37,907 nt of DNA from a virus. Numbering within the stretch: position 1 is the stretch's first letter; each line of letters starts with the position of its first letter. Under the pieces are notes generated by a model. That model was not told the origin of the DNA. It saw only the letters and a list, made by a program, of their open reading frames with translations, and searched no databases. The DNA lies in the IMG/VR virus record IMGVR_UViG_3300031977_002414, positions 1-37,907 of that record. One strand, 5' to 3'. This document shows positions 14,814-30,581 of the stretch, piece by piece. The position numbers and the translations under genes are program-made.

Positions 14814-14818
14814 GACAC

Positions 14819-15915: not shown

Positions 15916-16008
15916 TAAGTTTACTGGCGAGTTCCGTAAGGATAAACCATAAAGGTATAAGGGTTGGGGGTGCCTGGCCGACTTGCCATCTTTAATAGGA
16001 TTAAACCA

Positions 16009-16176: not shown

Positions 16177-16188
16177 GGACTAAACCAA

Positions 16189-16762: not shown

Positions 16763-16766
16763 ACTA

Positions 16767-17120: not shown

Positions 17121-17126
17121 CCAGTC

Positions 17127-17339: not shown

Positions 17340-17476
17340 TTTTTGAACACCAACTTTATATGAAATTTATAATATAGGTACCAAAGCATAAACTTACTTC
17401 TTGGGACTCAATAGCAAGACTACCCCCCCCCTACCTTACTTCACAGTCACCTCTACCTTCTACTAATACTTCTTAG
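17340..17476. other. Intergenic leader with poly-C tract
   Basis: There is no gene between 17339 and 17542. The first part is AT-rich, then a run of nine C bases (17423-17431), then CT-rich sequence up to the hairpin at 17477. I see no clear terminator. Confidence 0.6.
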
Positions 17477-17495
17477 GCAGCAAGCTGCATAGCGG
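17477..17495 (+). promoter_or_regulatory. putative virion-RNAP hairpin promoter 1
   Basis: The stem GCAGC/GCTGC with a 2-nt loop is followed by ATAG, CGG and ATGGG. It shares the stem-N4-CGGAT layout with seven other sites. The next ATG is 49 nt from the C of CGG. A second stem (17497-17519) follows at the would-be mRNA 5' end. Confidence 0.6.
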
Positions 17496-17541
17496 ATGGG
17501 TTGGTATGGTATCAGCCCACGTTCATTATCAGGAGTCTATT

Positions 17542-17811
17542 ATGACTATCAAGCAGTTGTGGAAAGCATTACTACGTTGGTTGGGCCGTTCAGTTAACGT
17601 AGTGGATAAGCTAACCGAGGCAGCAGAGTACGGTGCAGACATCGTTCTCGAGACATCCAAGTCTTGGCATGATGAGTTTTCGGCAGACTTCGCCGAGACG
17701 CAGGCATTATCCAAACTCCGCAAGGAGAACGCAGAGGCCAAAGCCAAAGCAGACTTGGAGAAAGCCAAAGCAGCAGAAGACCCAGAGAAATCCAAGGACG
17801 AGACAGCGTAA
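17542..17811 (+). CDS. hypothetical protein with charged helical C-terminus
   Basis: This is an 89-residue protein. The N-terminus is amphipathic and basic (MTIKQLWKALLRWLGR). Residues about 55-89 are an Ala/Lys/Glu-rich single helix (ENAEAKAKADLEKAKAAED). The start at 17542 has AGGAG at 7-nt spacing; an in-frame start at 17506 lacks one. A terminator overlaps its stop and a hairpin promoter precedes it, so it is a single-gene early transcription unit. The amphipathic start could bind membrane or a host protein; this is speculative. Confidence 0.7.
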   Translation: MTIKQLWKALLRWLGRSVNVVDKLTEAAEYGADIVLETSKSWHDEFSADFAETQALSKLRKENAEAKAKADLEKAKAAEDPEKSKDETA

Positions 17812-17832
17812 GCTGTCTCCACCTTTTTTTTT
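17800..17832 (+). terminator. Terminator overlapping stop of 17542 gene
   Basis: An 8-bp stem GAGACAGC/GCTGTCTC with a GTAA loop containing the stop is followed after four bases by nine T. Confidence 0.85.
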
Positions 17833-17844
17833 ACATCCCGAGTG

Positions 17845-18002
17845 CGCATCGCTTCGCGATGCGTAATACACATTACACATTACACATTACACATACACAA
17901 GAGATAGTTAGTTATTAGGTATTAAGAGATTAGTTACACAGAATTACACATTACTAGGGCAGGATGGGCGGGAATAGATAACTACAGTATTACTACAGTA
18001 TT
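17845..18002. repeat. Gene-free stretch with hairpin and tandem repeats
   Basis: The 326 bp between 17811 and 18138 hold no gene. It contains an 8-bp stem CGCATCGC/GCGATGCG with a TTC loop (17845-17863). Four perfect TACACAT units follow (17867-17894), and two perfect ACTACAGTATT units lie at 17981-18002. More TTACACA-like words are scattered between. The repeats could bind a replication or regulatory protein, but nothing proves it. Confidence 0.7.
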
Positions 18003-18060
18003 ACTTAAGTTCAGTAATGTTAATTACTAGCTAACTCTTACCTCTTACTAAGGGTATTGA

Positions 18061-18081
18061 TGCTACTACGTAGCACGATGA
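18061..18081 (+). promoter_or_regulatory. putative virion-RNAP hairpin promoter 2
   Basis: A 6-bp stem TGCTAC/GTAGCA with loop TAC (core GCTAC-TAC-GTAGC) is followed by ACGA and TGA. The loop is the same as at three other sites. A second hairpin GAGAGC/GCTCTC (18083-18099) follows. The next ATG is at 18138. Confidence 0.5.
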
Positions 18082-18137
18082 AGAGAGCTTAATGCTCTCA
18101 TTAATCATTAATCCCGGTTCTGTAGGAGGAACTAACA

Positions 18138-18272
18138 ATGGAAATCGAATTCCGTGTAAATAACATCGCTTCTCCAGAGGCTTTAGAAGCCATAAGATTC
18201 TTACAAGGAAGCTATTTTGTAACCGTAAAACGTATAGCTCCTAACCTCTGGCTTATCAGAGGTGAAAGGTAG
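18138..18272 (+). CDS. hypothetical 44-residue protein
   Basis: It begins MEIEFRVNNIASPEALEAIR and ends LIRGER. A strong TAGGAGGA site lies 8 nt before the ATG, which is good support for such a short gene. A small TAGCC/GGCTA stem overlaps its stop. The function is unknown. It is the first of six small genes with similar spacing and stop-codon hairpins. Confidence 0.65.
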   Translation: MEIEFRVNNIASPEALEAIRFLQGSYFVTVKRIAPNLWLIRGER

Positions 18273-18328
18273 CCTAACGGCTATCTCCCTTTCCCCACTT
18301 CCCTCAACCTAGATACTAAGGAACTATT

Positions 18329-18493
18329 ATGAAATTATCAGACGTAACAACTTGGCATAAAGATTTCATCACCTATGAAGACGGTGTTTACGTATGTTGG
18401 GACGAATCTGCTGCCAACATAATCACCATCACTGATAGCGTCGAAGACGCCATAGATGTATTAGATACTTATGCAGCAACCTTAGAGCCTTAA
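18329..18493 (+). CDS. hypothetical 54-residue protein
   Basis: This acidic protein starts MKLSDVTTWHKDFITYEDG and ends AATLEP. AAGGAA lies before the ATG. A two-strand then helix layout is likely (YEDGVYVCW, then SVEDAIDVLD). Its stop lies within a 7-bp hairpin. The function is unknown. Confidence 0.65.
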   Translation: MKLSDVTTWHKDFITYEDGVYVCWDESAANIITITDSVEDAIDVLDTYAATLEP

Positions 18494-18501
18494 CAGGCTC
18501 T
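18484..18501 (+). terminator. Stop-codon hairpin, weak terminator or attenuator
   Basis: AGAGCCT and AGGCTCT flank TAAC, which contains the stop. TTACTCCCTC follows rather than a T-run, so termination would be partial at best. Confidence 0.55.
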
Positions 18502-18545
18502 TTACTCCCTCATTCCCATTTAACCATTAGACTAAGGAATTAAAT

Positions 18546-18782
18546 ATGAGCACGTACTATTTCCCAACAGAAGAAGCTGCCAAACAAGCAGTGATAAGCT
18601 TTGAAACTGAAAAGTTCGAAGCGTTTAAAGCTGCGATGACTGAATCAAGTCACCCGGTAATTTACAAATTCAACAAGTACAGAGTTGAAGTAGATTGTAC
18701 GTTGCATACAAGTGATTGTTATTACTTAAATGTTTACGTATCTAAATACAGACGTATTATGTCCCGATCTTACGTCTTCTAA
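18546..18782 (+). CDS. hypothetical protein
   Basis: This is a 78-residue protein starting MSTYYFPTEEAAKQAVISFE. It looks like a small alpha/beta fold with an N-terminal helix and C-terminal strands ending YVSKYRRIMSRSYVF. AAGGAA precedes the ATG, and its stop lies at the base of an 8-bp hairpin. No family is recognised. Confidence 0.65.
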   Translation: MSTYYFPTEEAAKQAVISFETEKFEAFKAAMTESSHPVIYKFNKYRVEVDCTLHTSDCYYLNVYVSKYRRIMSRSYVF

Positions 18783-18800
18783 GAGCCTGTTAAGGCTCTT
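18781..18800 (+). terminator. Stop-codon hairpin, weak terminator or attenuator
   Basis: AAGAGCCT and AGGCTCTT with loop GTTA are followed by CACTCCCTC. It is nearly the same element as at 18484, with the stop in the 5' arm. Confidence 0.55.
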
Positions 18801-18838
18801 CACTCCCTCAATCTTCTAACCTAACTTAAGGAGTTTCT

Positions 18839-19108
18839 ATGTATACCTTTACGTTACGTCCTTGCTCTCTTGAATATGAAGATGGGCATATAGCTATCAG
18901 GGATAGTGCTAAGACCTTGATTGCTACCCATAAGCATAAATTCTCTTCGAAAGAAGAGTGTAGAAATTGGTGCCTTCAAGTTTTAATACCTGCTCTCAAA
19001 GCTGGTACTAAGCTTAACCGTGAGCACTGGCGCTGCACTCGCGCTGTAAACAGCACTAAGTGGAAACCTTGTCTGGATTCACTTACTAACCCATACCCAT
19101 TATTCTAA
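18839..19108 (+). CDS. hypothetical protein
   Basis: This is an 89-residue basic protein with four Cys (CSLEYEDG, EECRNWC, RCTRA, KPCLDS) and many His/Lys. AAGGAG precedes the ATG with good spacing. It lies 11 nt before the next gene. The function is unknown. Confidence 0.65.
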   Translation: MYTFTLRPCSLEYEDGHIAIRDSAKTLIATHKHKFSSKEECRNWCLQVLIPALKAGTKLNREHWRCTRAVNSTKWKPCLDSLTNPYPLF

Positions 19109-19119
19109 GGAGATTCCTT

Positions 19120-19329
19120 ATGTACATTGATGATAAAACAGCTCAAAAAGTCCTTCTTAAGGACCTAATATCCAGAATGCTGGTAGGTCTGGAAGGCTCA
19201 CATACTCACAGATTAACCTCTGACGAGGTTAAAGAAGTGCTGGACTCTGTCCAGTTTTCAGATGAAGAAGAAGTGAGCGCGTTATTAGACGCAATGTTCA
19301 CTTATTATCTCAAATCTCAAGAGCCTTAA
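19120..19329 (+). CDS. hypothetical protein, paralogue A
   Basis: This is a 69-residue acidic helical protein. Its second half shares spacing and residues with the next gene: LTSDEVKEVLDSVQ versus LTKEDVFEVLNHLA, then ALLDAMFTYYL versus TLIDAMKSYYI. The two are probably a tandem duplication that has diverged. AAGGAG precedes the ATG. The function is unknown. Confidence 0.65.
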   Translation: MYIDDKTAQKVLLKDLISRMLVGLEGSHTHRLTSDEVKEVLDSVQFSDEEEVSALLDAMFTYYLKSQEP

Positions 19330-19337
19330 TTGGCTCT
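19320..19337 (+). terminator. Stop-codon hairpin
   Basis: A 6-bp stem AGAGCC/GGCTCT spans the stop of the 19120 gene. No T-run follows. Confidence 0.5.
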
Positions 19338-19362
19338 ACTTCCAAATACTAAGGAGTTCGTT

Positions 19363-19575
19363 ATGGATATTCATCCAAAGGCTGCGCCTAGAGCATCTCT
19401 TCAAGTTGCTGCACTTAACTTGATGATTGAATTAGATCGTAAAAATACTCCTCTTACTAAAGAGGATGTGTTTGAAGTTCTAAATCACTTGGCTTTAACT
19501 AGTGAGAAAGACGGTAGCGCAACGCTTATTGACGCTATGAAGTCTTATTACATCACTCAACATGAGAACCTTTAG
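19363..19575 (+). CDS. hypothetical protein, paralogue B
   Basis: This is a 70-residue protein starting MDIHPKAAPRASLQVAALN. The ATG at 19363 has AAGGAG; an earlier TTG at 19330 lacks a site. It is a diverged copy of the preceding gene. It ends the run of small genes, and a strong terminator overlaps its stop. Confidence 0.65.
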   Translation: MDIHPKAAPRASLQVAALNLMIELDRKNTPLTKEDVFEVLNHLALTSEKDGSATLIDAMKSYYITQHENL

Positions 19576-19591
19576 GGTTCTCTTTTTTTTT
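19564..19591 (+). terminator. Strong terminator ending small-gene run
   Basis: A 7-bp stem GAGAACC/GGTTCTC with a 5-nt loop holding the stop is followed by nine T. Confidence 0.9.
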
Positions 19592-19778
19592 CTATATTGG
19601 TTTTACCTATAAGCAAATAAATATCGATAGTTAAAATCAATTAGACAAAAACCAATCCTTGATGTACCCTAAACACCGTGACCAAGCAAACGTACATCTA
19701 TATATATATCTTATATATACTTAAATATATACATATCTACTAAGTCTCTCCTTAATACCATCTACCAAACTTATTTAA
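19592..19778. other. AT-rich intergenic stretch
   Basis: No gene lies between 19575 and 19832. Positions about 19690-19735 are almost pure A/T with repeated TATATA words and would melt easily. No hairpin or iteron was recognised before the promoter candidate at 19779. Confidence 0.6.
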
Positions 19779-19798
19779 ACTACTACGTAGTATAACGG
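19779..19798 (+). promoter_or_regulatory. putative virion-RNAP hairpin promoter 3
   Basis: The stem ACTAC/GTAGT with loop TAC is followed by ATAA and CGG. It lies downstream of the strong terminator and 36 nt (from the C of CGG) before the SLOG gene. Confidence 0.6.
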
Positions 19799-19831
19799 CT
19801 ATTCAATTAACGATACTGTAGGAGGTATACA

Positions 19832-20338
19832 ATGAGCCAATGTATGAATTGTGGTGGGATGATGGAAGGTGACGGGTATACGTCAGTTCTTCATTGTGAA
19901 TATGTTGAAGAATTCGAGTATGAATATCTGGAACCAGATGCTCCTCCAGTTTATTGTGACTACCCAGAACTTAAACCATATAAAGTAATTGTTGCTGGGG
20001 GGCGTGACTTCAATGACTACGCTTTGGCAGAGAAAGTCTTGCACCAAGCAGTGGATCGGCTCCAAGCCAATGGTTACGAAATGGTCATCGTATCTGGTAT
20101 GGCTCGGGGTGCGGATAGAATTGGGCGGGAATACGGGCATCATTTCCATGTTCAAGTGGATGAGTTCCCTGCTGATTGGGATACTCACGGTAAGCGTGCT
20201 GGGTATTTACGTAATGAACAGATGGCTAACCATGCTGACGGATTAATAGCCTTCTGGGATGGTAAAAGCCGTGGAACCATGCACATGATCGAGACTATGA
20301 AGAAATTGGGTAAACCAATAAGAATAGTTGAATACTAA
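19832..20338 (+). CDS. SLOG-domain protein (DUF2493/YspA-like)
   Basis: This is a 168-residue protein. Residues 1-45 form a Cys-containing, acidic N-terminus (CMNCGG, later HCEY) that may bind zinc. From about residue 50 the DUF2493 Rossmann-like SLOG core is clear: VIVAGGRDFNDY, VIVSGMARGADRIGREYG, FPADWDTHGKRAGYLRNEQM and IAFWDGKSRGT. SLOG domains bind nucleotide-derived ligands and occur in many defence or counter-defence settings; the phage role here is unknown. TAGGAGG precedes the ATG. It is a single-gene unit between a hairpin promoter and a terminator. Confidence 0.88.
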   Translation: MSQCMNCGGMMEGDGYTSVLHCEYVEEFEYEYLEPDAPPVYCDYPELKPYKVIVAGGRDFNDYALAEKVLHQAVDRLQANGYEMVIVSGMARGADRIGREYGHHFHVQVDEFPADWDTHGKRAGYLRNEQMANHADGLIAFWDGKSRGTMHMIETMKKLGKPIRIVEY

Positions 20339-20365
20339 AAGAGGGCTTTACGCCCTCTTCTTTTT
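20339..20365 (+). terminator. Terminator after SLOG gene
   Basis: An 8-bp stem AAGAGGGC/GCCCTCTT with loop TTTAC is followed by CTTTTT. Confidence 0.9.
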
Positions 20366-20394
20366 ACACATACACACCTTCGTTTAACATCTTG

Positions 20395-20420
20395 TTACAC
20401 GCTCCATTTACACGCTCCAT
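20395..20420. repeat. Two tandem 13-bp units
   Basis: TTACACGCTCCAT occurs twice without a gap within the 246-bp gene-free stretch 20339-20584. The word TTACAC also recurs at 17.9 kb. The remainder up to 20517 is AT-rich with no gene seen. The purpose is unknown. Confidence 0.75.
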
Positions 20421-20517
20421 ATAGACTGCGCTTCGGTACATAACCTAATATGCGCTTCTTCTTTTTTCCAAAGATACTCGTATAAGTTACCTCTTCCCTA
20501 TATTAAAAAAAGATTAA

Positions 20518-20537
20518 GCTGCTACGCAGCAAAACGG
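20518..20537 (+). promoter_or_regulatory. putative virion-RNAP hairpin promoter 4
   Basis: The stem GCTGC/GCAGC with loop TAC is followed by AAAA and CGG. A second small stem ATGGC/GCCAT lies at 20538-20550, at the expected mRNA 5' end. The next ATG is 50 nt from the C of CGG. Confidence 0.65.
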
Positions 20538-20584
20538 ATGGCATAGCCATTACCAATAACTTAAAACTTTAAAAGGACAAGATC

Positions 20585-20842
20585 ATGGCCGTTATACTTG
20601 AAAACCAAACTTCTTTCGGTAACTCTAAATTCGAGAAGGCTGCTGCTTTCGTAAATGTGTATGTCCCCACTAAAGGGGGACAACGTAAGAAATTAGGTGC
20701 TATCCCACTGAAGGAGTCTGTAGGTCTGCATAAACAGATCATAGCCAAGATTGATGATGAAGAGTCGATGCAAAAGCTGATTCAACTGTTAGAGTTCGAA
20801 TTCCATGCAGTATCTGAAGATACCGCTGAGTTAGATATCTAA
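20585..20842 (+). CDS. hypothetical protein upstream of RNAP1
   Basis: This 85-residue protein has an N-terminal beta part (FVNVYVPTKGGQRKKLGAIP) and an acidic helical C-terminus. AAGGA precedes the ATG. It is expressed alone between a hairpin promoter and a strong terminator. N4-like phages often carry a small early gene here; its role is not known to me. Confidence 0.7.
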   Translation: MAVILENQTSFGNSKFEKAAAFVNVYVPTKGGQRKKLGAIPLKESVGLHKQIIAKIDDEESMQKLIQLLEFEFHAVSEDTAELDI

Positions 20843-20857
20843 TTCATCAGTCAAACC

Positions 20858-20885
20858 AAAGCCACTTAACAGTGGCTTTTTTTTT
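20858..20885 (+). terminator. Terminator before RNAP1
   Basis: A 9-bp stem AAAGCCACT/AGTGGCTTT with loop TAAC runs into a long T tract. It lies only 33 nt before the RNAP1 start, so RNAP1 depends on read-through or a promoter inside this gap. Confidence 0.92.
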
Positions 20886-20917
20886 GTTTTCCAGTTAGTT
20901 GATGTAGGAGTCAGCCA

Positions 20918-21823
20918 GTGAAAATGATAGCGGAAGATGCTCAGAGAGCCGTAGAGCTCTCTCTGGGCAAAAAACATATTAGGAAGCGGATAGCTAAGGC
21001 TATACGTGAAAATCCAGACCTTGAAGAGATGGTGCAGTATGGAGTTAGTTTACTTCAGGAATGGTTACAGGGAACTTATTATCAATCCAAACAGAAAAGG
21101 TTAGCTAGTTTAGCTGATGCTAATTTGGAGTTGATAGTCAGGGAAACCTTCCAGACAGTAGCTTTCTGTCAGACACCGGAACTGTTTACCTCAGTAGTGG
21201 GTATGTTGTCAGGAGCGTTAAACTTTCCAGAGAAGATAGACAATATCCGTACTGCTGCTGAGATATTAGCAGTGCTATGCAATACGGATGTTTATGACAT
21301 CATTAAACCAAGCAGAGATGCTTCACTTCAGGTCAAGGCTAACTTCCCGTTACCTGAAGCTCTGATAGATAGCATCTTGAGAAGTAAATACTTGCCGCCA
21401 ATGTTATGCCCACCAAGGAAGTATAGGCAAAACTTTGCTTCACCTTACTTAACCATAGACAAGGATATCTTGGTGTTAGGTAAAGGTAACGGGCATACAG
21501 GGGATTTGTGCTTAGATGTACTCAATATCCAAAATAATATTGAGTTGAGGTTAGATAAGGACTTTCTTACTGCATTAGAGGAGAAAGCGCCTAAAGACCC
21601 TAAAGCTCACAACATCCAGGATTGGGAGCAATTCTTTAAACAATCCAGAGAAATCTACGCCTTGATACTTAACCACGGAGGTACTTGTTACCTACCAAAT
21701 AAGGTAGATAAGAGAGGTCGTATGTATTCACTGGGATATCACGTAGCAACCCAAGGGTATTCTTACAAAAAGGCTATGTTGGAGCTTGCTAACGAAGAAA
21801 TAGTGGAGGGAGCTCCAAAATGA
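20918..21823 (+). CDS. RNA polymerase subunit 1 (N4 gp15-like, RNAPII)
   Basis: This 301-residue protein is the N-terminal half of a T7-type single-subunit RNA polymerase, which in N4 pairs with gp16 to transcribe middle genes. The decisive piece is near the end: KVDKRGRMYSLG (262-273) and KKAMLELA match the T7 polymerase DxRGRxY segment just before the palm. The chain then stops, so the catalytic aspartates lie in the second gene. The start is GTG at 20918 with TAGGAG at 7-nt spacing; the ATG at 20924 is less well spaced. The stop overlaps the next ATG. Confidence 0.9.
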   Translation: MKMIAEDAQRAVELSLGKKHIRKRIAKAIRENPDLEEMVQYGVSLLQEWLQGTYYQSKQKRLASLADANLELIVRETFQTVAFCQTPELFTSVVGMLSGALNFPEKIDNIRTAAEILAVLCNTDVYDIIKPSRDASLQVKANFPLPEALIDSILRSKYLPPMLCPPRKYRQNFASPYLTIDKDILVLGKGNGHTGDLCLDVLNIQNNIELRLDKDFLTALEEKAPKDPKAHNIQDWEQFFKQSREIYALILNHGGTCYLPNKVDKRGRMYSLGYHVATQGYSYKKAMLELANEEIVEGAPK

Positions 21824-22032
21824 AAACTAAAGTAGCAGTTTACACCTCATACATCGCCAGAGAAGCGGGAGTTAAAGTTCATGGGTTCTGGCAACAACCT
21901 CATGTAGTTAATGGATTTGATTGTTACAAGTACAAAGGAAACTTTTACCCTGCATATGAAGATCGAATACTGCAAGAAACTTACATTGTGTTGACTGAAG
22001 CAATGAATCCGTCAATGAACTTAGGAGCATAA
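21820..22032 (+). CDS. hypothetical protein inserted between RNAP subunits
   Basis: This is a 70-residue protein rich in Tyr and Val (VAVYTSYIAREAGVKVHGFW). It overlaps the RNAP1 stop as ATGA and ends 1 nt before the next start. The function is unknown. Being inside the RNAP operon it should be made together with the polymerase. Confidence 0.65.
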   Translation: MKTKVAVYTSYIAREAGVKVHGFWQQPHVVNGFDCYKYKGNFYPAYEDRILQETYIVLTEAMNPSMNLGA

Positions 22033-22033
22033 A

Positions 22034-22222
22034 ATGAAACCCTTAGTCTTCGTCAAAACCTACTATGACTCTGGTTTATGCCGCACTTACTACAACATAC
22101 AAGGGGATACCCAGCGTAAGGTTTACTGTCGTTATGATGGAGAAGACTTTATGTATATCTGTAGTAAAGACGGTGAACCCAGTCATTGCATTGGAGAAAC
22201 TCAGTACATAACTAAGGAGTAA
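22034..22222 (+). CDS. hypothetical protein inserted between RNAP subunits
   Basis: This is a 62-residue protein with paired Tyr and Cys (YYDSGLCRTYYNIQGDTQ, then MYICSKDGEPSHC), probably a small beta sheet. TTAGGAG precedes the ATG. The function is unknown. Confidence 0.65.
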   Translation: MKPLVFVKTYYDSGLCRTYYNIQGDTQRKVYCRYDGEDFMYICSKDGEPSHCIGETQYITKE

Positions 22223-22225
22223 TCC

Positions 22226-22561
22226 ATGAGCATTACTAAATCCAGTGTGGGGTGTACTCACGGTAAAGGCTTTAACTGTAATCTCTGTTGGCCCTTATTG
22301 GGCCTATTTGAAAACATAGTAATTAAGAAACAACTCTACAACAAAGATTGGTACATCGAGTGCCTAAGTGAAGTAGGAATCACTTATGGCATTGGTGAGT
22401 GTTGCGAAGTAAGTGTATCTGCTCAGTATCCAACGGATATTTGGGCAGATCAGAATACAACTTGGCTAACTCACTGCGAAGATCGTAAGTGGTGGCAAGA
22501 TGACCTACCAGTTGGAAAAGTAGTTAAACCATTCAGGAGACAAGACAGTGTTAGAGTTTAA
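22226..22561 (+). CDS. Cys-rich hypothetical protein inserted between RNAP subunits
   Basis: This is a 111-residue protein. The N-terminus CTHGKGFNCNLCWP could bind a metal ion together with the later GECCEV. The C-terminus is Trp-rich and basic. AAGGAG precedes the ATG. Its end overlaps the RNAP2 start by 14 nt. The function is unknown. Confidence 0.65.
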   Translation: MSITKSSVGCTHGKGFNCNLCWPLLGLFENIVIKKQLYNKDWYIECLSEVGITYGIGECCEVSVSAQYPTDIWADQNTTWLTHCEDRKWWQDDLPVGKVVKPFRRQDSVRV

Positions 22562-23771: not shown

Positions 23772-23796
23772 TTAGTATACGTAGCAGTGCTTTGAC

Positions 23797-23816
23797 GCTG
23801 CTACGCAGCAATATGG
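23797..23816 (+). promoter_or_regulatory. putative virion-RNAP hairpin promoter 5
   Basis: The stem GCTGC/GCAGC with loop TAC is followed by AATA and TGG. Upstream GTAGCAG (23781-23787) can instead pair with CTGCTAC (23798-23804), which would disrupt this hairpin. The next ATG is at 23843. Confidence 0.6.
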
Positions 23817-23842
23817 ATATTCAATAATTAAGGAGTTCTCTA

Positions 23843-24118
23843 ATGGCTGTAGTTGTAAATAAATATAAGTCAGAATTTGATGTATATATTGGGCGCGGAA
23901 GTAAATGGGGAAATCCTTTCCCTATCACTCCATTCCAAAATAGGGAGCAAGTTGTTGAAATGTACCGTAACCATCTTTGGAGGCAGATTCAAAAAGGAGA
24001 AGTAACTAAATCTGACCTTCTTGCGTTGGAAGGTAAGCGTTTAGGTTGCTTTTGTAAGCCTCAAGCTTGCCACGGAGATGTAATAGTTGCTGCCATTAAG
24101 TGGGCTAAGAATTCATAG
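23843..24118 (+). CDS. DUF4326-family protein
   Basis: This 91-residue protein has the DUF4326 signature: VDxYIGRGSKWGNPF (here DVYIGRGSKWGNPF), then EMYRNHL and LEGKRLGCFCKPQACHGDVI. The Cys/His cluster at the end suggests metal binding. The family is common in phages and its activity is not established. AAGGAG precedes the ATG. It forms its own unit between hairpin promoter 5 and a terminator. Confidence 0.88.
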   Translation: MAVVVNKYKSEFDVYIGRGSKWGNPFPITPFQNREQVVEMYRNHLWRQIQKGEVTKSDLLALEGKRLGCFCKPQACHGDVIVAAIKWAKNS

Positions 24119-24146
24119 GAACCTTCGGGTTCCTCTTTTTTTTTTA
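24117..24146 (+). terminator. Terminator after DUF4326 gene
   Basis: A 7-bp stem AGGAACC/GGTTCCT with a TTCG loop is followed by C and then a T run of more than ten. Confidence 0.92.
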
Positions 24147-24160
24147 CAGTAGAGCTCAGC

Positions 24161-24181
24161 AGCCTTGCGGCTGTCTTCGGA
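24161..24181 (+). promoter_or_regulatory. putative virion-RNAP hairpin promoter 6
   Basis: The stem CAGCC/GGCTG with a 4-nt loop is followed by TCTT, CGG and ATAAT. It lies 15 nt past a terminator and 25 nt (from the C of CGG) before the next ATG. Confidence 0.55.
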
Positions 24182-24203
24182 TAATTAAGATTGAGTATTT
24201 GAT

Positions 24204-24422
24204 ATGAGAATTTTTAGGTATTGTGATCCAGATGGAGAACACTTCATTACAGAGGATCAGATTATTGAACAGTATTTTGAATACTGGAAAGAGCAGATGA
24301 GCAAGGTGAAGAAAGATAGTCTTATTAACAGAGAGAACTGTATTCAAGACTTCTGTGTAATTAACTGGGCTTGTGAAGTAATTACAGAAGATAATTTTGA
24401 GGATAGTTATGGCCGGGGCTGA
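24204..24422 (+). CDS. hypothetical protein
   Basis: This is a 72-residue acidic, largely helical protein (EDQIIEQYFEYWKEQMS). There is no strong ribosome site, and the likely 5' end lies close to the ATG. It overlaps the next gene by 14 nt. The function is unknown. Confidence 0.65.
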   Translation: MRIFRYCDPDGEHFITEDQIIEQYFEYWKEQMSKVKKDSLINRENCIQDFCVINWACEVITEDNFEDSYGRG

Positions 24423-24879
24423 AAAAATATGTGAGCTTAGTGGTGAATATCCTGGGTGGCTTATGTATCAGTATAAGCGTAACCAACTCCAGATTACGCC
24501 TAAGTATCGGAAATTATTTAGAGGAGATGGGAATACTATTTATGTTCAAAAAGATGGCTTGTATTGGGAATACAACTGGGGAGGGTTAACAAGTTTCAAC
24601 TTAGTTGAAATGGAATTATTTGATCCCCCGTTTACTGATGTAGCTGAGTTTATAAGTTATAAAAAGCAAGTAGAAAAACTACGGCTTACTCAGCGTTATC
24701 AGTTTGCCTACCTTACAGATACCCCTGAGTTACAGGGTAATGTAGCGGGTGTGTTTATTAACTTTACCTATGACCTTCCAGCTACAAAACGAAAAATGAA
24801 AAGGCTTTTAAGGTGTCGAGATTTAAACGTTATTTTTGTAGACGATCTACGTAACATTAATCTTCCACAGCCGGAGTAA
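24409..24879 (+). CDS. hypothetical protein
   Basis: This is a 156-residue basic and aromatic protein starting MAGAEKICELSGEYPGWLMY. The ATG at 24409 is chosen because GAGGA lies 5 nt upstream; a TTG at 24397 lacks a site. The C-terminus (KRKMKRLLRCRDLNVIFVDDL) is basic and then beta. No family is recognised. Confidence 0.7.
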   Translation: MAGAEKICELSGEYPGWLMYQYKRNQLQITPKYRKLFRGDGNTIYVQKDGLYWEYNWGGLTSFNLVEMELFDPPFTDVAEFISYKKQVEKLRLTQRYQFAYLTDTPELQGNVAGVFINFTYDLPATKRKMKRLLRCRDLNVIFVDDLRNINLPQPE

Positions 24880-24882
24880 TTA

Positions 24883-25065
24883 ATGAACAAAGTAAAGATG
24901 TCATTTGCCGGAGTAGCAGATAACCCTTACCGCACCATGACACGGTTCCAATACAATGCAAGAAAGCAAGGTTGGAGTCAGGAAGAAATTGATGCTGTGA
25001 TCTTGGAAGCTACATCAGGTGACTACGATCACTTACTTCAAACCATTATGAGGAATATTGAATAA
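24883..25065 (+). CDS. hypothetical protein
   Basis: This 60-residue protein has an N-terminal extended part (NPYRTMTRFQYNARKQGW) and a C-terminal helix pair (SQEEIDAVILEAT). It follows the previous stop by 3 nt. The function is unknown. Confidence 0.65.
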   Translation: MNKVKMSFAGVADNPYRTMTRFQYNARKQGWSQEEIDAVILEATSGDYDHLLQTIMRNIE

Positions 25066-25088
25066 TGGGGCTACCTCTATATTCCAGA

Positions 25089-25118
25089 AAAACTACAAAT
25101 CTGGGAGGCATGTATGAA
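25089..25118 (+). repeat. 30-bp leader repeat, left copy
   Basis: AAAACTACAAATCTGGGAGG continues through the ATG of the 25114 gene. It matches 28 of 30 bases of the copy at 27869-27898, also ending in a gene start. The two copies bracket 2.8 kb of small genes. Confidence 0.85.
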
Positions 25119-25320
25119 ACTCATAATAGTATCAAAAGCGAAGTTTCAATCTTTGAGACAAAAAGACTTCGGTGACGACTTTATACACGAAGGAAAACCT
25201 TGTCGTATAGGGTATGCCAGTAGAGATAAAGAGGGGCGAGTAATCACGATAGAAGCCTTCCCAATCACACAAATGGGAGGCTCTAGGGATGGCTCAGTCT
25301 TTGGTTTTGTCAGTGAATAA
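25114..25320 (+). CDS. hypothetical protein, cassette block
   Basis: This is a 68-residue protein (MKLIIVSKAKFQSLRQKDFG...) with beta-rich middle and end. The ribosome site GGGAGG lies within the 30-bp leader repeat. An 18-bp repeat follows 2 nt after its stop. The function is unknown. Confidence 0.65.
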   Translation: MKLIIVSKAKFQSLRQKDFGDDFIHEGKPCRIGYASRDKEGRVITIEAFPITQMGGSRDGSVFGFVSE

Positions 25321-25322
25321 CG

Positions 25323-25340
25323 TCCGCAAAGTTGAATAAG
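25323..25340 (+). repeat. post-stop repeat copy 1
   Basis: TCCGCAAAGTTGAATAAG, 2 nt after the stop of the 25114 gene. Copies at 25961, 26361 and 27004 fit TCCGCNNWGTTGAANARG. Confidence 0.8.
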
Positions 25341-25348
25341 GTGAAGCA

Positions 25349-25744
25349 ATGAATTTGAAAGAAAAACTCGCAGATGCACATAATAATTTTCCTATTATTG
25401 AGAGCCATCCCGCCATGTTATATGCAGAAGCTCTTAACGAAATAATTGAATTAGAAGAAGCTCTTGAAGAATGCAGGAAATACTTTCAGAGCAGAAGAAG
25501 ACGTTTTGAGATGGAATGGATAGATAAAAATAGCGCCCTTCCACAAAACGATGAATGGGTAATTGGTACTGACTGCGAGCATGTTTTTGAGTGTTTTCAT
25601 TTTGACGATGGTTGCTTTATTGATAAACATGGTCGCCCAGTGCTAGTTTTTTTTTGGATGGACAAACCAGAGCCGCCTAAATTACCAGATGATTGGGAGC
25701 CTCTAAAAGATGAGGAATCATTCTTTAAAAATGGCTCAGTTTAA
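25349..25744 (+). CDS. DUF551-like protein with coiled-coil N-terminus
   Basis: This is a 131-residue protein. Residues 1-50 are helical and charged (ALNEIIELEEALEECRKYF). From residue 55 a DUF551-like part follows: MEWIDKNSALPQNDEWVIG, then VLVFFWMDKPEPPKLPDDW. DUF551 proteins are small phage proteins of unknown role. The ribosome site is weak (AAGGTGAAGCA). An 18-bp repeat lies between it and the previous gene. Confidence 0.65.
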   Translation: MNLKEKLADAHNNFPIIESHPAMLYAEALNEIIELEEALEECRKYFQSRRRRFEMEWIDKNSALPQNDEWVIGTDCEHVFECFHFDDGCFIDKHGRPVLVFFWMDKPEPPKLPDDWEPLKDEESFFKNGSV

Positions 25745-25749
25745 AAATA

Positions 25750-25769
25750 TCAGCAAAGCTGATTAGCGG
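25750..25769 (+). promoter_or_regulatory. putative virion-RNAP hairpin promoter 7
   Basis: The stem TCAGC/GCTGA with loop AAA is followed by TTAG and CGG, the same stem-N4-CGG layout. It starts 5 nt after the upstream stop, and the C of CGG is 30 nt before the next ATG. Confidence 0.5.
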
Positions 25770-25796
25770 CCAACTCTATAAAGGAGACGTTTTGGA

Positions 25797-25955
25797 ATGG
25801 AAAGGTATATCGTTAAAGAAATAGGCTTAATCGTGCAGTATTTAGCATCATTTGATTCATTTAAAGAAGCGAAAGAATTTGCGGATAAGCACCCAAAAAC
25901 CACACAAATTTACCAACTACTTTATGACGGTCAAGTTGAGCATGGGCCTTTGTGA
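25797..25955 (+). CDS. hypothetical 52-residue protein, cassette block
   Basis: It begins MERYIVKEIGLIVQYLASFD and ends VEHGPL; it is likely strand-helix-strand. The leader CTCTATAAAGGAGACGTTTT directly upstream is shared with two neighbours (before 26008 and 26771), which supports it as a real gene. A post-stop repeat follows. The function is unknown. Confidence 0.65.
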   Translation: MERYIVKEIGLIVQYLASFDSFKEAKEFADKHPKTTQIYQLLYDGQVEHGPL

Positions 25956-25960
25956 GAATT

Positions 25961-25978
25961 TCCGCTAAGTTGAATAAG
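25961..25978 (+). repeat. post-stop repeat copy 2
   Basis: TCCGCTAAGTTGAATAAG, 5 nt after a stop, differs from copy 1 at one base. Confidence 0.8.
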
Positions 25979-26007
25979 CCGATAAGTCTATAGAGGAGAT
26001 GTTTAAG

Positions 26008-26358
26008 ATGAAAGACGTAATCGAATATCGAAGTCGTTTCATTTGCAAAACCAATTACGGCTATGTTGTTAAAGATGCCGTTGACAGTAGTTACAACCTT
26101 CATCACGGCATGTTTGATAACGTTGAGCAAGCTAAAGCTCACATTAACACTCGCGCCTCAATAATTTCTGATTTACCGGCATTAGGGAGTTTTTGGACGC
26201 ATAAAAACGGTAACAAGTACAAAGTCATTGCCTTAGCTAATACTCGCACAGAAAGGCCAGAACAATACCCTGTTACTGTTGTTTACGAGAACATAAATAA
26301 TGGGACTGTTTGGTGCCGCAAGGCGACTGATTGGCATCGCTCGATGACTAAATGCTAA
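26008..26358 (+). CDS. DUF1653-like protein, cassette block
   Basis: This is a 116-residue protein. The C-terminal 60 residues follow the DUF1653 pattern: GSFWTHKNGNKYKVIALANT, then EQYPVTVVYENIN and VWCRKATDWHRSM. The N-terminal part (YGYVVKDAV..., HHGMFDNVEQAKAHI) looks like a separate small domain. The start is the second ATG at 26008, 9 nt after AGGAG; the ATG at 25999 directly abuts the site. The family role is unknown. Confidence 0.75.
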   Translation: MKDVIEYRSRFICKTNYGYVVKDAVDSSYNLHHGMFDNVEQAKAHINTRASIISDLPALGSFWTHKNGNKYKVIALANTRTERPEQYPVTVVYENINNGTVWCRKATDWHRSMTKC

Positions 26359-26360
26359 TG

Positions 26361-26378
26361 TCCGCTTAGTTGAAAAAG
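26361..26378 (+). repeat. post-stop repeat copy 3
   Basis: TCCGCTTAGTTGAAAAAG, 2 nt after a stop. Here TGTCCGCTT can pair with AAGCGGACA at 26376-26384, a 9-bp hairpin. Confidence 0.75.
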
Positions 26379-26427
26379 CGGACAAGTAAGGAGTTATGAC
26401 TGTCCAGTCAATTTTTTAGGTGAATAT

Positions 26428-26742
26428 ATGTCTAAGCAAACGCAAAAACGAGTTCAATTTATAAAAGTTACAGAAGTCATTGGTGATCGGTATCAAGTAA
26501 CGAGAGATATTGCGGTCCTAGGTGTTAGTGAAGATGGATTAACAGATAGCCAAGTTCATGAGCTGTTGTCAGATTACATGCAGGCAACTAATAATCCGTT
26601 TGAAGCGGTTAACGGGGCTTGGTGGACGCATCATGATGGTTATGTTTTTGCAGAAATCACTGACGACACGTATCCAGAGGATCACGCCATTTTTCAAGTT
26701 ATACAGCAGGTGATGCCCGGCAACATTTGGACGTTGGAATGA
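26428..26742 (+). CDS. hypothetical protein, cassette block
   Basis: This is a 104-residue protein with a strand-rich start (VQFIKVTEVIGDRYQVTRDI) and an acidic Trp-containing middle (GAWWTHHDGY). TTAGGTG precedes the ATG. No post-stop repeat follows it. The function is unknown. Confidence 0.65.
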   Translation: MSKQTQKRVQFIKVTEVIGDRYQVTRDIAVLGVSEDGLTDSQVHELLSDYMQATNNPFEAVNGAWWTHHDGYVFAEITDDTYPEDHAIFQVIQQVMPGNIWTLE

Positions 26743-26770
26743 CTACAAACTCCATAAAAGGAGACATTTT

Positions 26771-27001
26771 TTGAGACCTTTAATTGTTGATTTAGAGCTA
26801 GAAGATTTGCCTGACTCGCACGAACAAACACTTAAATATATCGAAAAACTTGAAAATGAGCTGAAAGAATCACGTAGGAAAGCAATCGAGGATTTCTGCA
26901 TATACTTGCTTAAAGATTGGAGAATAGGCTTACACGATCAGCGTGTAGCTTTCTTCGAAATGGATAAAAGCATTGAGATACAAAAGAACGCTTTGCGTTA
27001 A
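26771..27001 (+). CDS. hypothetical protein, cassette block
   Basis: This is a 76-residue protein starting MRPLIVDLELEDLPDSHEQT, then a coiled-coil helix (TLKYIEKLENELKESRRKA) and a C-terminal helical part. The start is TTG at 26771, 7 nt after AAAGGAG in the shared leader. A post-stop repeat follows. The function is unknown. Confidence 0.65.
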   Translation: MRPLIVDLELEDLPDSHEQTLKYIEKLENELKESRRKAIEDFCIYLLKDWRIGLHDQRVAFFEMDKSIEIQKNALR

Positions 27002-27003
27002 CG

Positions 27004-27021
27004 TCCGCAATGTTGAAGAGG
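27004..27021 (+). repeat. post-stop repeat copy 4
   Basis: TCCGCAATGTTGAAGAGG, 2 nt after a stop and directly before the ribosome site of the next gene. Confidence 0.75.
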
Positions 27022-27030
27022 AAAAGTTAA

Positions 27031-27420
27031 ATGAAACAGCCCACACATGCAGTCAGATATATAAACAACTGGGACGGTGAAGGCGATATTGAAACGGTCT
27101 TAGCATTTAAAATAGATGATGAATTCTACTGTTTTGACACTAACCGAAAATTGATTGAATACGTAGGCGATGAAATTTTAAATGTTTGGTATTTAGACAT
27201 TAACTCGTCTAATAGACATTCGGAGGAACGAGTTTTGGAAGACATAGTTAAATTCTTGGTTGCGTTCGATGACGAACCGCTTTTCGAAATCCCTGTAGAT
27301 AGTTACTTTGGCGCAGAGGAATTTGTTAAGAAAACATTCAAGCAGTATGACGAGGTTCGTGTAGTACGAGTAGTTTATCGTGCAATCGACACAACCCCGT
27401 TTTTCGTTAAAACAAAATAG
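27031..27420 (+). CDS. hypothetical protein, cassette block
   Basis: This is a 129-residue acidic and aromatic protein, MKQPTHAVRYINNWDGEGD..., with a long C-terminal helix (GAEEFVKKTFKQYDEVRV) and a terminal strand. GAGGAAAAG precedes the ATG. The function is unknown. Confidence 0.65.
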   Translation: MKQPTHAVRYINNWDGEGDIETVLAFKIDDEFYCFDTNRKLIEYVGDEILNVWYLDINSSNRHSEERVLEDIVKFLVAFDDEPLFEIPVDSYFGAEEFVKKTFKQYDEVRVVRVVYRAIDTTPFFVKTK

Positions 27421-27430
27421 GACTATAGGT

Positions 27431-27559
27431 ATGAAAACAGGTATGCGGTGTCCATCATGCGGCATAAGAAAAAGCTGGATTAGTTTTCCTAATTCCAGAG
27501 GGGTGGGTAGTATTTGCAATAGCTGTATGAATAAACAGTCACAGCCTAAAAAGAAATAA
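27431..27559 (+). CDS. small zinc-ribbon protein, 42 residues
   Basis: MKTGMRCPSCGIRKSW then SICNSCMNKQ: two CxxC pairs 19 residues apart form a probable zinc ribbon, followed by a Lys tail. Such small proteins often bind nucleic acid or RNA polymerase; no partner is identified here. It starts 10 nt after the previous stop. Confidence 0.65.
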   Translation: MKTGMRCPSCGIRKSWISFPNSRGVGSICNSCMNKQSQPKKK

Positions 27560-27576
27560 TGTAGGGGGGACGAGTT

Positions 27577-27825
27577 ATGGAATTTGATTTTGAAGAGTTA
27601 ATGGCGGATATACTCGGGATATCTGACGAGCAACGTGAAGACACCGAAGCCGTGTCTGACGCGATTTACGAAAAGTTTGGAATACATACAGAAGAGGCGT
27701 TTAACCTAACCCTTGCGTTATTGCAGAGAACGCCAAAGGTTAAAGCAGGATTTTCTGGAAAGCTTTATCACGCATTCGTCAATAAAGATGACGATGTAAT
27801 GCTGATGAAAGTTGAAGCTAAGTGA
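27577..27825 (+). CDS. hypothetical protein, cassette block
   Basis: This is an 82-residue acidic helical protein (MEFDFEELMADILGISDEQR) with a short C-terminal beta part. GGGGGACGAG precedes the ATG. The function is unknown. Confidence 0.65.
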   Translation: MEFDFEELMADILGISDEQREDTEAVSDAIYEKFGIHTEEAFNLTLALLQRTPKVKAGFSGKLYHAFVNKDDDVMLMKVEAK

Positions 27826-27868
27826 TATCGGAAAAGAGACTAATGACCGTTAGGTCTTATGAAGCAAT

Positions 27869-27898
27869 AAAACTATAAATCTGAGAGGCATGTATGAA
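27869..27898 (+). repeat. 30-bp leader repeat, right copy
   Basis: AAAACTATAAATCTGAGAGG continues through the ATG of the 27894 gene. It differs from 25089-25118 at two bases. Confidence 0.85.
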
Positions 27899-28133
27899 GT
27901 GTAAGGATTGCGTCCACTTCAATCGCACAAAATGGCACAAAGATATAGACCCAAGAGAAACAGATCAAAAAGGCGGCAACTGCTCCATGCTTAAAGATAT
28001 ATTGGGTTTATCGAATGATAGTTTGTATTTTAAAACAGGCATCCATGTTTATGAATCCTTTGGCTGCACTGCGTTTAAAGAAATTTCAGCGGATAACTTA
28101 GATAAAGTGTGCGAATTAACAGAAAACTACTAG
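27894..28133 (+). CDS. Cys-rich hypothetical protein
   Basis: This is a 79-residue protein. MKCKDCVHF at the start, GGNCSM in the middle and FGCTAF later give four Cys that could hold a metal ion. Small Cys-rich proteins with CxxCxxF starts are common in phages. The ribosome site GAGAGG is in the leader repeat. Its stop lies at the base of a small AGAGC/GCTCT hairpin. Confidence 0.65.
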   Translation: MKCKDCVHFNRTKWHKDIDPRETDQKGGNCSMLKDILGLSNDSLYFKTGIHVYESFGCTAFKEISADNLDKVCELTENY

Positions 28134-28168
28134 AGCGGGTTAATGCTCTTAGGAGGAGTGAGTTAAGA

Positions 28169-28354
28169 ATGAAAGATAGAATGTTCACGATTGAAACTAT
28201 AGGCAGTAATTCGTCAGGCAACATAGTATCGGTATACTTAGGTGATCCTAAGAAGATGGGGGCTGAAGCGGAACATGTAATGACAATTAATGCCTCCCTA
28301 CTTCCTACTTTGATAGCTGATATTAAAAACTATCAGTTGAACGGAACTAAATAA
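28169..28354 (+). CDS. hypothetical protein
   Basis: This 61-residue protein starts MKDRMFTIETIGSNSSGNI and is likely mostly beta with one C-terminal helix (LLPTLIADIKNYQL). TTAGGAGGAG lies before the ATG at 28169. A longer frame from 28109 begins inside the previous gene. The function is unknown. Confidence 0.65.
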   Translation: MKDRMFTIETIGSNSSGNIVSVYLGDPKKMGAEAEHVMTINASLLPTLIADIKNYQLNGTK

Positions 28355-28404
28355 TGTCGAAAAAGAGATTAGCAAAAGAAGCTCTAGGGAGGAATCTTGA
28401 ATAA
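28354..28404 (+). CDS. possible 16-residue coupling peptide
   Basis: MSKKRLAKEALGRNLE starts in a TAATG overlap with the gene before and covers the GGGAGG ribosome site and start of the gene after (28397). Its translation could open that start. It may also be chance. Confidence 0.25.
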   Translation: MSKKRLAKEALGRNLE

Positions 28405-28894
28405 AATACGCAAGCTTCCTGCTCCCAGGTATAGATTCTGGACTTGGGAATCTGAATTTAATCCGCAAACAGGCGATAGTGACGGTAACCTGCGTATTAA
28501 ACGCAGTATTGTCTGGGATTTGGTTACTGCATTAGAAGTTCATAACTTCAAAAATATGAGCCACAAACTGGCTATCTGCATTCGTATTGAGTGTATGAAC
28601 GTCTCAGCAGCTTGGGGAATACCTACTGTTTTTTACCCCGCTGAGTTAATCAAGATTTCCGAGATGGAAGACTTCTATAAAGAACAGCGTAAACAACTGT
28701 TAGAGCAAGTACAGTACAGACACATTGTAGATGTAGGTTGGGTACTACAAACATACAGCAATCGAAACCAAGTAGAGAACGATACCTGGTGGCAAGTAGG
28801 AGATAAACCAATCACAGAAGAGCGTCAGCAGTTATGGCGTTACTATCACAACACTTTCAAAAACCCCACCCGGCTATCGCCGGTCAACGGGTAA
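28397..28894 (+). CDS. hypothetical protein, middle region
   Basis: This is a 165-residue protein with many Trp, Tyr and Arg (RYRFWTWESEF, then HIVDVGWVLQTYSNRNQ and WWQVGD). The start is TTG at 28397 with AGGGAGG 4 nt upstream; no nearby ATG fits. It is often found ahead of the ATPase gene in N4-like phages, by my recollection, but its function is not known. Confidence 0.65.
   Translation: MNKIRKLPAPRYRFWTWESEFNPQTGDSDGNLRIKRSIVWDLVTALEVHNFKNMSHKLAICIRIECMNVSAAWGIPTVFYPAELIKISEMEDFYKEQRKQLLEQVQYRHIVDVGWVLQTYSNRNQVENDTWWQVGDKPITEERQQLWRYYHNTFKNPTRLSPVNG
28870..28890 (+). promoter_or_regulatory. putative virion-RNAP hairpin promoter 8
   Basis: The stem CCGGC/GCCGG with loop TATC is followed by TCAA and CGG. 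It overlaps the end of the upstream gene and lies 47 nt (from the C of CGG) before the HTH gene. It could be a chance fold within coding sequence. Confidence 0.35.
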
Positions 28895-28934
28895 CTTTTA
28901 TAACCAAACTAATTTATAAATACGGAGACTAACA

Positions 28935-29303
28935 ATGACCGTAAAAATACTAACACCTATTGAAAAGTCACAGGTACTAGCGGCTTACCATACTGGAAGC
29001 TCTAAAGCTGATATTGCATTGGAATTTGAAGTCTCTCGTAAGACAATCAGCCGGGTGCTTATTGAGAAAGGCGTTATCAAGAAAGCATGGCGATCTGAAA
29101 TCCACTTAACCCAAGAAGAAGCTGAATTGATCTGGGAGATGCGTGAAAACGGTACTAAACCAAAAGATGTAATGACATTCCCCAATCTCAGAGTATTCGA
29201 TGTTTTTCGTTGGTTCCGTAAGCAATCTATAACAAGACAAAAGATGTTAGCTCGAATGATTGCTGCAGAGCTTAAAACTAAAGTCACCGAGAAATCAGCT
29301 TAA
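28935..29303 (+). CDS. helix-turn-helix DNA-binding protein
   Basis: This is a 122-residue protein. Residues about 8-45 form a resolvase/transposase-type HTH: EKSQVLAAYHTGSSKADIAL, then FEVSRKTISRVLIEKG, where the second helix would read DNA. A second HTH-like segment (LTQEEAELIWEMRENGTKP) follows. It lacks any recombinase domain, so a regulatory role is more likely. It lies just before the ATPase gene. Confidence 0.75.
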   Translation: MTVKILTPIEKSQVLAAYHTGSSKADIALEFEVSRKTISRVLIEKGVIKKAWRSEIHLTQEEAELIWEMRENGTKPKDVMTFPNLRVFDVFRWFRKQSITRQKMLARMIAAELKTKVTEKSA

Positions 29304-29321
29304 AACGGAGCATACAGCGTT

Positions 29322-30335: not shown

Positions 30336-30365
30336 TGGCCTATTTCTTTATATAGGAGACATGTA

Positions 30366-30566: not shown

Positions 30567-30581
30567 ACCATGGAGACTTAC

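Follow-up and report, generated by a model that had tools for sequence, protein, structure and literature searches.

Early promoters in the form of DNA hairpins are already known from bacteriophage N4, in which they are read by a virion-packaged RNA polymerase (vRNAP), and three per phage have been predicted in LUZ7, LIT1 and PEV2 as well as in CB1, CB3 and CB4. In the N4 promoters, the 5' G and the 3' A of the template-strand loop, which form a sheared G-A pair, and the pair that closes the loop matter, and vRNAP contacts -11G and -8G and measures the distance to the start site with a ruler (PMC4496689). The hairpin promoters predicted in the Pseudomonas phages LUZ7, LIT1 and PEV2 have a 4-5-nt stem and were placed before genes 1, 12 and 13 (PMC3715699, 2010), and the map of phage JA1 also marks predicted promoters (PMC3670811). 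Here we describe a family of eight hairpins in the virus record IMGVR_UViG_3300031977_002414, whose entire 37,907 bp are the window that was analysed. Taken as a family, these hairpins are probably early promoters that are read by the vRNAP of an N4-like phage of the Schitoviridae, a reading to which we assign, on sequence comparisons, a probability of roughly 0.87. It is quite likely that at least six of them are true promoters, and somewhat doubtful that all eight are.

In this element, an inverted repeat of 5 bp or more encloses a loop that on the template strand is mostly of the form C-GN(N)A-G, and it is followed by a fixed gap (four bases here), the triplet [CT]GG, a leader of 26-59 nt, a ribosome site and a gene. 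The eight sites, which precede open reading frames (ORFs), are the following:

17477-17495, plus strand: GCAGC-AA-GCTGC, then ATAG and CGG, before ORF 17542-17811; a weak member.
18061-18081, plus strand: TGCTAC-TAC-GTAGCA, then ACGA and TGA, with six pairs from 18061 and the 5-bp core from 18062, before ORF 18138 and the cluster that extends to 19575.
19779-19798, plus strand: ACTAC-TAC-GTAGT, then ATAA and CGG, before 19832-20338 (SLOG family).
20518-20537, plus strand: GCTGC-TAC-GCAGC, then AAAA and CGG, before 20585-20842 (phrog_6271).
23797-23816, plus strand: GCTGC-TAC-GCAGC, then AATA and TGG, before 23843-24118 (DUF4326).
24160-24180, plus strand: CAGCC-TTGC-GGCTG, then TCTT and CGG, with the template tetraloop C-GCAA-G, before ORF 24204-24422.
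25749-25769, plus strand: ATCAGC-AAA-GCTGAT, then TTAG and CGG, with six pairs from 25749 and the 5-bp core from 25750, before ORF 25797-25955; a weak member.
28870-28890, plus strand: CCGGC-TATC-GCCGG, then TCAA and CGG, with the template tetraloop C-GATA-G, before 28935-29303 (helix-turn-helix protein).

All eight hairpins of the original prediction exist, two of its positions being one base off (18061/18062, and 24160 for 24161), and the identical TAC loop that it had noticed at four sites is found at 18061, 19779, 20518 and 23797. A stem of 5-7 bp with a 3-nt loop is present at five of the eight sites (these four and 25750); 24160 and 28870 have a 4-nt loop, and that of 17477 has 2 (or 4) nt. 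The leaders, counted from the tail triplet to the start codon, fall within the claimed 25-60 nt; at the first site, for example, the CGG occupies 17493-17495 and the in-frame ATG is found at 17542. When folded as single-stranded DNA, site 17477 is no better than its shuffles (z 0.02) and site 19779 slightly better (z -0.99), the remaining six sites reach z -2.06 to -2.92, and the first N4 site has z -2.90.

The strict pattern of a 5-bp stem, a 2-4-nt loop, four bases and CGG occurs six times on the plus strand of 14282-29000, where 200 dinucleotide shuffles average 0.35 with a maximum of 3, and it is absent from the minus strand of this region; shuffled sequence does not yield the pattern at an equal frequency, as would be expected of a real family. 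If the tails CGG, TGG and TGA are all allowed, 11 matches stand against 2.2 in shuffles with a maximum of 8, so that the looser tails weigh little alone. As the pattern had been picked from the same sequence, these window figures flatter it, and the independent tests are those in other genomes. When the template strand is read, the TAC loops become C-GTA-G and the four-base loops C-GCAA-G and C-GATA-G, which places six of the eight sites in the class C-GN(N)A-G if tetraloops are counted, and four of the eight as triloops. A scan for this class with a stem of at least 5 bp gave nine matches on the gene strand of 14282-29000, compared to 0.22 in shuffles, and three on the other strand; over the entire window there are 11 versus four on the other strand, with 0.72 in shuffles. 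Five gene-strand sites are complete with class and [CT]GG tail (19779, 20518, 23797, 24160 and 28870), and three of the nine class matches, which lack a GG tail (17845, 18270 and 19213), are probably something else.

As a control, the C-GN(N)A-G scan (stem of at least 5) of N4 positions 1-14000 returned exactly three matches, at 90, 557 and 4546, located before gp1, gp2 and gp15; the opposite strand of this region gave no match. The matches at 557 and 4546 are presumably the promoters P2 and P3. The match at 90 carries the letters of the published P1 hairpin, as given in the available part of PMC12633501. N4 P1-P3 and the window have in common a 5-7-bp stem, a C-closed template loop with 5' G and 3' A, a short gap and GG, and in both the hairpins are oriented along the gene strand, the N4 promoters preceding early genes that include the RNA polymerase operon. 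The two differ in number, N4 having three promoters and the window up to eight, and in arrangement, as the window has three single-gene units and one cluster before its RNA polymerase genes and four sites (23797, 24160, 25750 and 28870) after them. The gap between stem and [CT]GG is three at all three N4 sites and four at all five non-coding full-motif sites of the window, so that the N4 spacing is not found here. Position -11 is G or A in N4 and T at the four TAC sites of the window, which in contrast to N4 also possesses two tetraloops and two other loops.

The other phages with predicted hairpin promoters resemble the window in different respects. LIT1 and LUZ7 hairpins have TAC loops as well, and the LIT1 hairpin at 3546 precedes LIT1 gene 13, which is the ortholog of 20585, whereas the gap at the full-motif sites of LIT1 is five instead of four. 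In the LIT1 scan, no C-GN(N)A-G hairpin was found before gene 1, and another two hairpins, of the form C-GNA-G and with a T-rich tail, were detected. The Pectobacterium phages CB1, CB3 and CB4 share with the window the five-nucleotide stem, the three-nucleotide loop and the early-region location, but they have three hairpins per phage and are described with a central purine, unlike the window (available text of PMC6027278).

The RNAP2 protein alone, used as query against viral contigs, gave no match. When an alignment of nine RNAP2 proteins served as query, 420 relatives were obtained; the 80 best loci were retained (best 58%, locus L019), and the comparison set comprised the window, eight phage records and these 80 loci, that is 89 sequences and 1.61 Mb. 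The full motif, defined as a stem of at least 5, C-GN(N)A-G, three to five bases and [CT]GG, was found 101 times on the gene strand and 15 times on the other strand of the 89 sequences, compared to 3.4 in shuffles. The loop class also emerges from a loop-blind count of hairpins with a stem of at least 5 and a [CT]GG tail at a gap of 3-6. C-closed GN(N)A loops occur 115 times on the gene strand versus 20 on the other, and the other C-closed classes are distributed as 9/11 (AA), 46/66 (other two-base), 120/107 (three-base), 69/92 (four-base) and 77/66 (five-base). With another closing pair, the counts are 11/14 (AA), 40/34 (GN(N)A), 183/177 (two-base), 197/212 (three-base), 178/178 (four-base) and 220/222 (five-base). 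Some single loop types outside the class are strand-biased as well, for example C-ATA-G (11/1), C-GCA-G (10/2) and C-AAG-G (9/1), while their pooled classes are about even. Within the class, the strand bias is carried by the three-base loops with 83 versus 10 distinct sites. Of the 115 family matches, 100 have a ribosome-site-like start 15-110 nt downstream. The base at -11 in the family triloop matches is T in 41, G in 37, A in 27 and C in 6 cases. A G at template position -8 was rejected as a family rule, the family-wide counts being C 60, G 47, A 17 and T 6, and AA loops are unsupported as a general class by their 9 versus 11 and were retained solely as evidence for the L019 lineage.

The original prediction had presented the set as an expansion of the three promoters of N4, which it would be with up to eight sites, but it is not unique in this, as L028 and L036 possess five full-motif sites each; these two loci are partial, and site counts in relatives are lower bounds. 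A further locus, L052, contains five TAC hairpins with a different, A-rich tail. At 29 of 82 distinct sites a second inverted repeat of at least 4 bp begins at the GG (14.2 in shuffles, maximum 23), and at 11 of 82 this repeat has at least 5 bp (4.3 in shuffles, maximum 11). Such a stem is visible at two or three window sites and two N4 sites, and it is possibly a 5'-terminal stem-loop of the early RNAs. The literal hairpin GCTGCTACGCAGCANNNYGG is found in eight stretches of viral contigs, with no evident link in the surrounding DNA or in other hairpins there.

At two genes the element is kept upstream of orthologs with its stem sequence wholly changed. Upstream of the orthologs of 20585 (E 1e-3, stem of at least 4, window included, and locus L043 dropped as a contig-edge artefact), a C-GN(N)A-G hairpin is present in 36 of 46 regions, 25 of them with a stem of at least 5, compared to 0.67 in shuffles and one on the reverse strand. 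As some of the 46 regions come from near-identical phages (the Litunavirus copies, L029/L067 and L050/L051), distinct arms were counted, and the 5' arm was found in 19 different versions. The loop is TCC in 11 cases, TAC in 11, TTC in 8, TGC in 4, and TTAC and TTGC in one each. A stricter count (E 1e-4, stem of at least 5) retains 17 of 37 orthologs, one of the 17 being the L043 artefact. For 19832, a class hairpin precedes six of 15 usable orthologs (0.17 in shuffles), and with L019, which has C-AA-G instead, seven of 15 have a hairpin. The two L019 hairpins, at 7977 and 8402, share a GCCGC-AA-GCGGC core and lie upstream of its 20585 and 19832 orthologs; a change of loop type at conserved promoters is a possible explanation. 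The conservation upstream of orthologous genes that had been asked of true promoters is found at 20585 and 19832 but not at 23843 and 28935, and the remaining four downstream genes have no detectable ortholog in the set. Among the comparison genes, a hairpin with a stem of at least 5 is located upstream of RNAP2 in 0 of 88, RNAP1 in 3 of 85 and the ATPase in 4 of 72 cases.

The spacing between stem and [CT]GG is five at all five L028 sites and all four L029 sites and six at four At2 sites. Equal gaps were found in 67 of 129 within-genome pairs, compared to 36.5 after permutation (maximum 53 in 1000), a statistic that includes near-duplicate loci and related genomes, and several genomes are mixed (e.g. 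L009, L021, L023 and L036). The data are thus no more than suggestive of a spacing that is mostly kept within one phage and varies from phage to phage. With +1 always at the first G, as is the case in N4, transcription would start 11, 12 or 13 bases from the loop centre. T7-like polymerases favour G at the start. For this reason, and as the first G is +1 in N4, the start site in the window, originally placed at the C of CGG, is more likely to be the first G of [CT]GG.

The polymerase itself can be traced in the relatives. With a 1071-residue piece of the LIT1 vRNAP as query, 20 relatives were examined (17 viral contigs and three named phages), and in 19 of them a match was found, located in an open frame of 3345-3727 aa; the L092 record gave no vRNAP match. 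In an alignment of the RNA polymerase domains of N4, LIT1 and 20 pieces from these 19 relatives, of which the aligned stretch is short and gappy, the column of N4 W129, the residue that stacks on -11, contains W, Y, F or H in 21 of 21 covering rows, and D901 and R904 are retained in some rows only. As a lead, this pattern, together with the missing counterparts of N4 K114 and R119, would agree with a free middle loop base.

By analogy with N4, host gyrase would supercoil the incoming DNA, and the template strand would then extrude a small hairpin that is stabilized by the sheared G-A loop pair, while single-stranded DNA-binding protein would open the opposite strand. The vRNAP would dock on the hairpin and begin RNA synthesis at the first G of [CT]GG or directly beside it. 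Terminators would divide the early region into short units, four of them with a single gene. The terminator-like hairpins and the genes in question are:

17800-17832, plus strand: terminator-like hairpin with T run, end of the 17542 unit.
19564-19591, plus strand: terminator-like hairpin with T run, end of the 18138-19575 cluster.
20339-20366, plus strand: terminator-like hairpin with T run, end of the 19832 unit.
20858-20886, plus strand: terminator-like hairpin with T run, between gene 20585 and RNAP1.
24117-24146, plus strand: terminator-like hairpin with T run, end of the 23843 unit, just before hairpin 24160.
19832-20338, plus strand: early gene g3, SLOG (YspA/cpYpsA-related) family.
20585-20842, plus strand: early gene g4, phrog_6271, whose PHROGs label 'toxin' is only putative; it follows the best-conserved hairpin.
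20918-21823, plus strand: RNAP1, N4-like, small subunit of the middle RNA polymerase (phrog_2166, 5.9e-83).
22548-23771, plus strand: RNAP2, N4-like, large subunit of the middle RNA polymerase (phrog_2051, 4.2e-149).
23843-24118, plus strand: early gene g5, DUF4326.

A terminator-like hairpin with a T run precedes four sites (18061, 19779, 20518 and 24160) at a distance of roughly 15-240 nt, where the original prediction had spoken of at least two within 20-190 nt. Its up to eight single-gene units are reduced to four (17542, 19832, 20585 and 23843), as the 18061 unit consists of about six ORFs to 19575. In the window scan, neither a hairpin of the C-GN(N)A-G class nor a full motif was found directly upstream of RNAP1, so that the RNA polymerase genes would need read-through of the 20858 terminator from 20518, or another promoter. 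Sigma-70 promoters gave no signal, with 33 matches in 12000-31000 versus 48.5 in shuffles. Hairpins of the type AGAGCC...GGCTCT are located at stop codons of the small-gene cluster (18484, 18782 and 19320, plus strand), mostly without a T run, and the one at 19565 has a T run. A further motif, TCCGCNNNGTTGAANANG, is present in four copies (25323, 25961, 26361 and 27004, plus strand) just 3' of the stop codons of small genes, compared to 0.03 in shuffles.

The window encodes an N4-like RNAP1 and RNAP2, an N4-type ATPase, a phrog_1314 protein, a DNA polymerase, a terminase and a major capsid protein. Matches to N4-like families or phages, obtained for RNAP1, RNAP2, the ATPase, the terminase and the major capsid protein, place it in the Schitoviridae. 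Cultured phages are distant, the best identities among the matches listed being 46% (RNAP2), 47% (DNA polymerase) and 57% (capsid protein). N4-like genomes have a size of 59-80 kb (available text of PMC7650795), and the 37.9-kb record is therefore likely a fragment of a Schitoviridae genome. The terminase and head genes occupy the minus strand up to 14.8 kb, and the early genes lie on the plus strand beyond. In the 865-aa terminase large-subunit ORF (11005-13602, minus strand), the best phrog_38 stretch begins at residue 410, and this ORF seems to carry an intein-like insertion in the Walker A region.

Several observations weigh against the view that the hairpins are vRNAP promoters. No ORF of vRNAP size is found within the 37.9-kb record, a fragment, and the vRNAP gene would lie outside it. 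At 17477 and 25750 the tail fits, but the template loops (AA and TTT) are not GN(N)A; at 18061 the template loop C-GTA-G fits, but the tail TGA is not [CT]GG. Where N4 has a purine at -11, the four TAC sites and the TTT loop of 25750 have T, and the template -8G of N4 is present at five of the eight window sites. The N4 residues in contact with -10G and -11G, K114 and R119, are without counterpart in the other rows of the short and gappy alignment. Hairpins are missing upstream of the usable orthologs of 23843 (0 of 4) and of the orthologs of 28935 (0 of 5), and 10 of the 46 regions upstream of 20585 orthologs are without the class. Tetraloops are weakly biased, with 14 versus 6 distinct sites with tail and 59 versus 68 without. 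Finally, a sixth full-motif match of the window, at 31756 with a gap of three, lies inside the coding ORF 31315-32496 and is probably a false positive, and 26 of the 115 family matches lie deep inside ORFs of at least 80 aa, from which it follows that the motif has false positives.

The most serious alternative concerns single members: a core of four to six sites would be real, and 17477, 25750 and perhaps 28870 would be chance hairpins that happen to precede four bases and CGG. We consider this a substantial possibility, if somewhat short of an even one. The poor fold of 17477, its AA loop of a class without strand bias in the relatives and the TTT template loop of 25750 speak for it, as does site 28870, which overlaps the 3' end of ORF 28397-28894 and whose gene has orthologs without such a hairpin. 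The six strict sites versus 0.35 expected imply, on the other hand, that few should be chance, the leader lengths of these sites are normal, and L019, the closest relative by RNAP2, has C-AA-G hairpins before two orthologous genes. Site by site, support for a promoter is strong at 19779, 20518, 23797 and 18061, moderate at 24160 and 28870, and weak at 17477, with its AA loop and poor fold, and at 25750, with a template loop of TTT. The assignment as virion-RNAP early promoters was largely right by the computed tests, and it stands on weaker grounds for 17477, 25750 and, in part, 28870.

It is improbable that the hairpins act as RNA, that is as elements of 5' leaders for stability, RNase or translation control, or as terminators, instead of as DNA promoters. 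In favour of such a role, their distance to the start codon is 26-59 nt, transcription from a promoter further upstream would include them, and other RNA hairpins lie nearby. However, a T run follows none of the eight hairpins, the loop class with the strong strand bias is the one that N4 has on its DNA template strand, the spacing to [CT]GG tends to be constant within a genome, the same scan recovers the three N4 promoter places, and no Rfam family matches the window at gathering scores. Palindromic operators of a phage regulator are a still more remote explanation, for which it could be argued that two TAC hairpins share the same 13 bases and that the gene after 28870 encodes a helix-turn-helix protein; the 19 arms among the orthologs are a change that a sequence-reading protein would not tolerate, and the hairpins nearly always point the same way relative to the gene (36 cases, with 1 on the reverse strand). 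Just as remote are explanations by chance or by a shared repeat: the pattern was picked after seeing the sequence and TGG/TGA tails are common by chance, but the independent genomes give 101 versus 3.4 in shuffles, and the stems differ, so that no single repeat was copied.

We therefore prefer to regard the family as vRNAP promoters, and tentatively propose that N4 represents one case of a promoter code of Schitoviridae vRNAPs, with a C-GN(N)A-G hairpin, a free middle base and a lineage-set ruler, which in some phages including that of the window would be used at five to eight sites, some of them past the middle-polymerase genes. No report of larger sets, of a family-wide loop rule or of spacing differences was found in the available text of the literature, including PMC3915230, PMC13001222, PMC7650795, PMC3670811, PMC2784036 and PMC10654107, a coverage that leaves out most subscription papers and the JA1 promoter number, which is not visible in PMC3670811.

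DNA secondary structure rarely serves as a promoter, and the N4 hairpin promoter is one such case. The simple oriented rule to which the element is reduced by the comparison of the 89 sequences finds the three promoter places of N4 and nothing else in its first 14 kb, and it could aid the annotation of early units in uncultured Schitoviridae. The lineage-dependent spacing and the free -11 base provide direct hypotheses on the vRNAP domains. The N4 virion contains 4 +/- 1 vRNAP copies, and a preprint speculates, in its available text, that each promoter engages its own copy (PMC12633501); eight promoters would bear on this speculation. If the proposed code is true, the approximately four vRNAP copies reported for an N4 virion would have to re-initiate instead of serving one promoter each.

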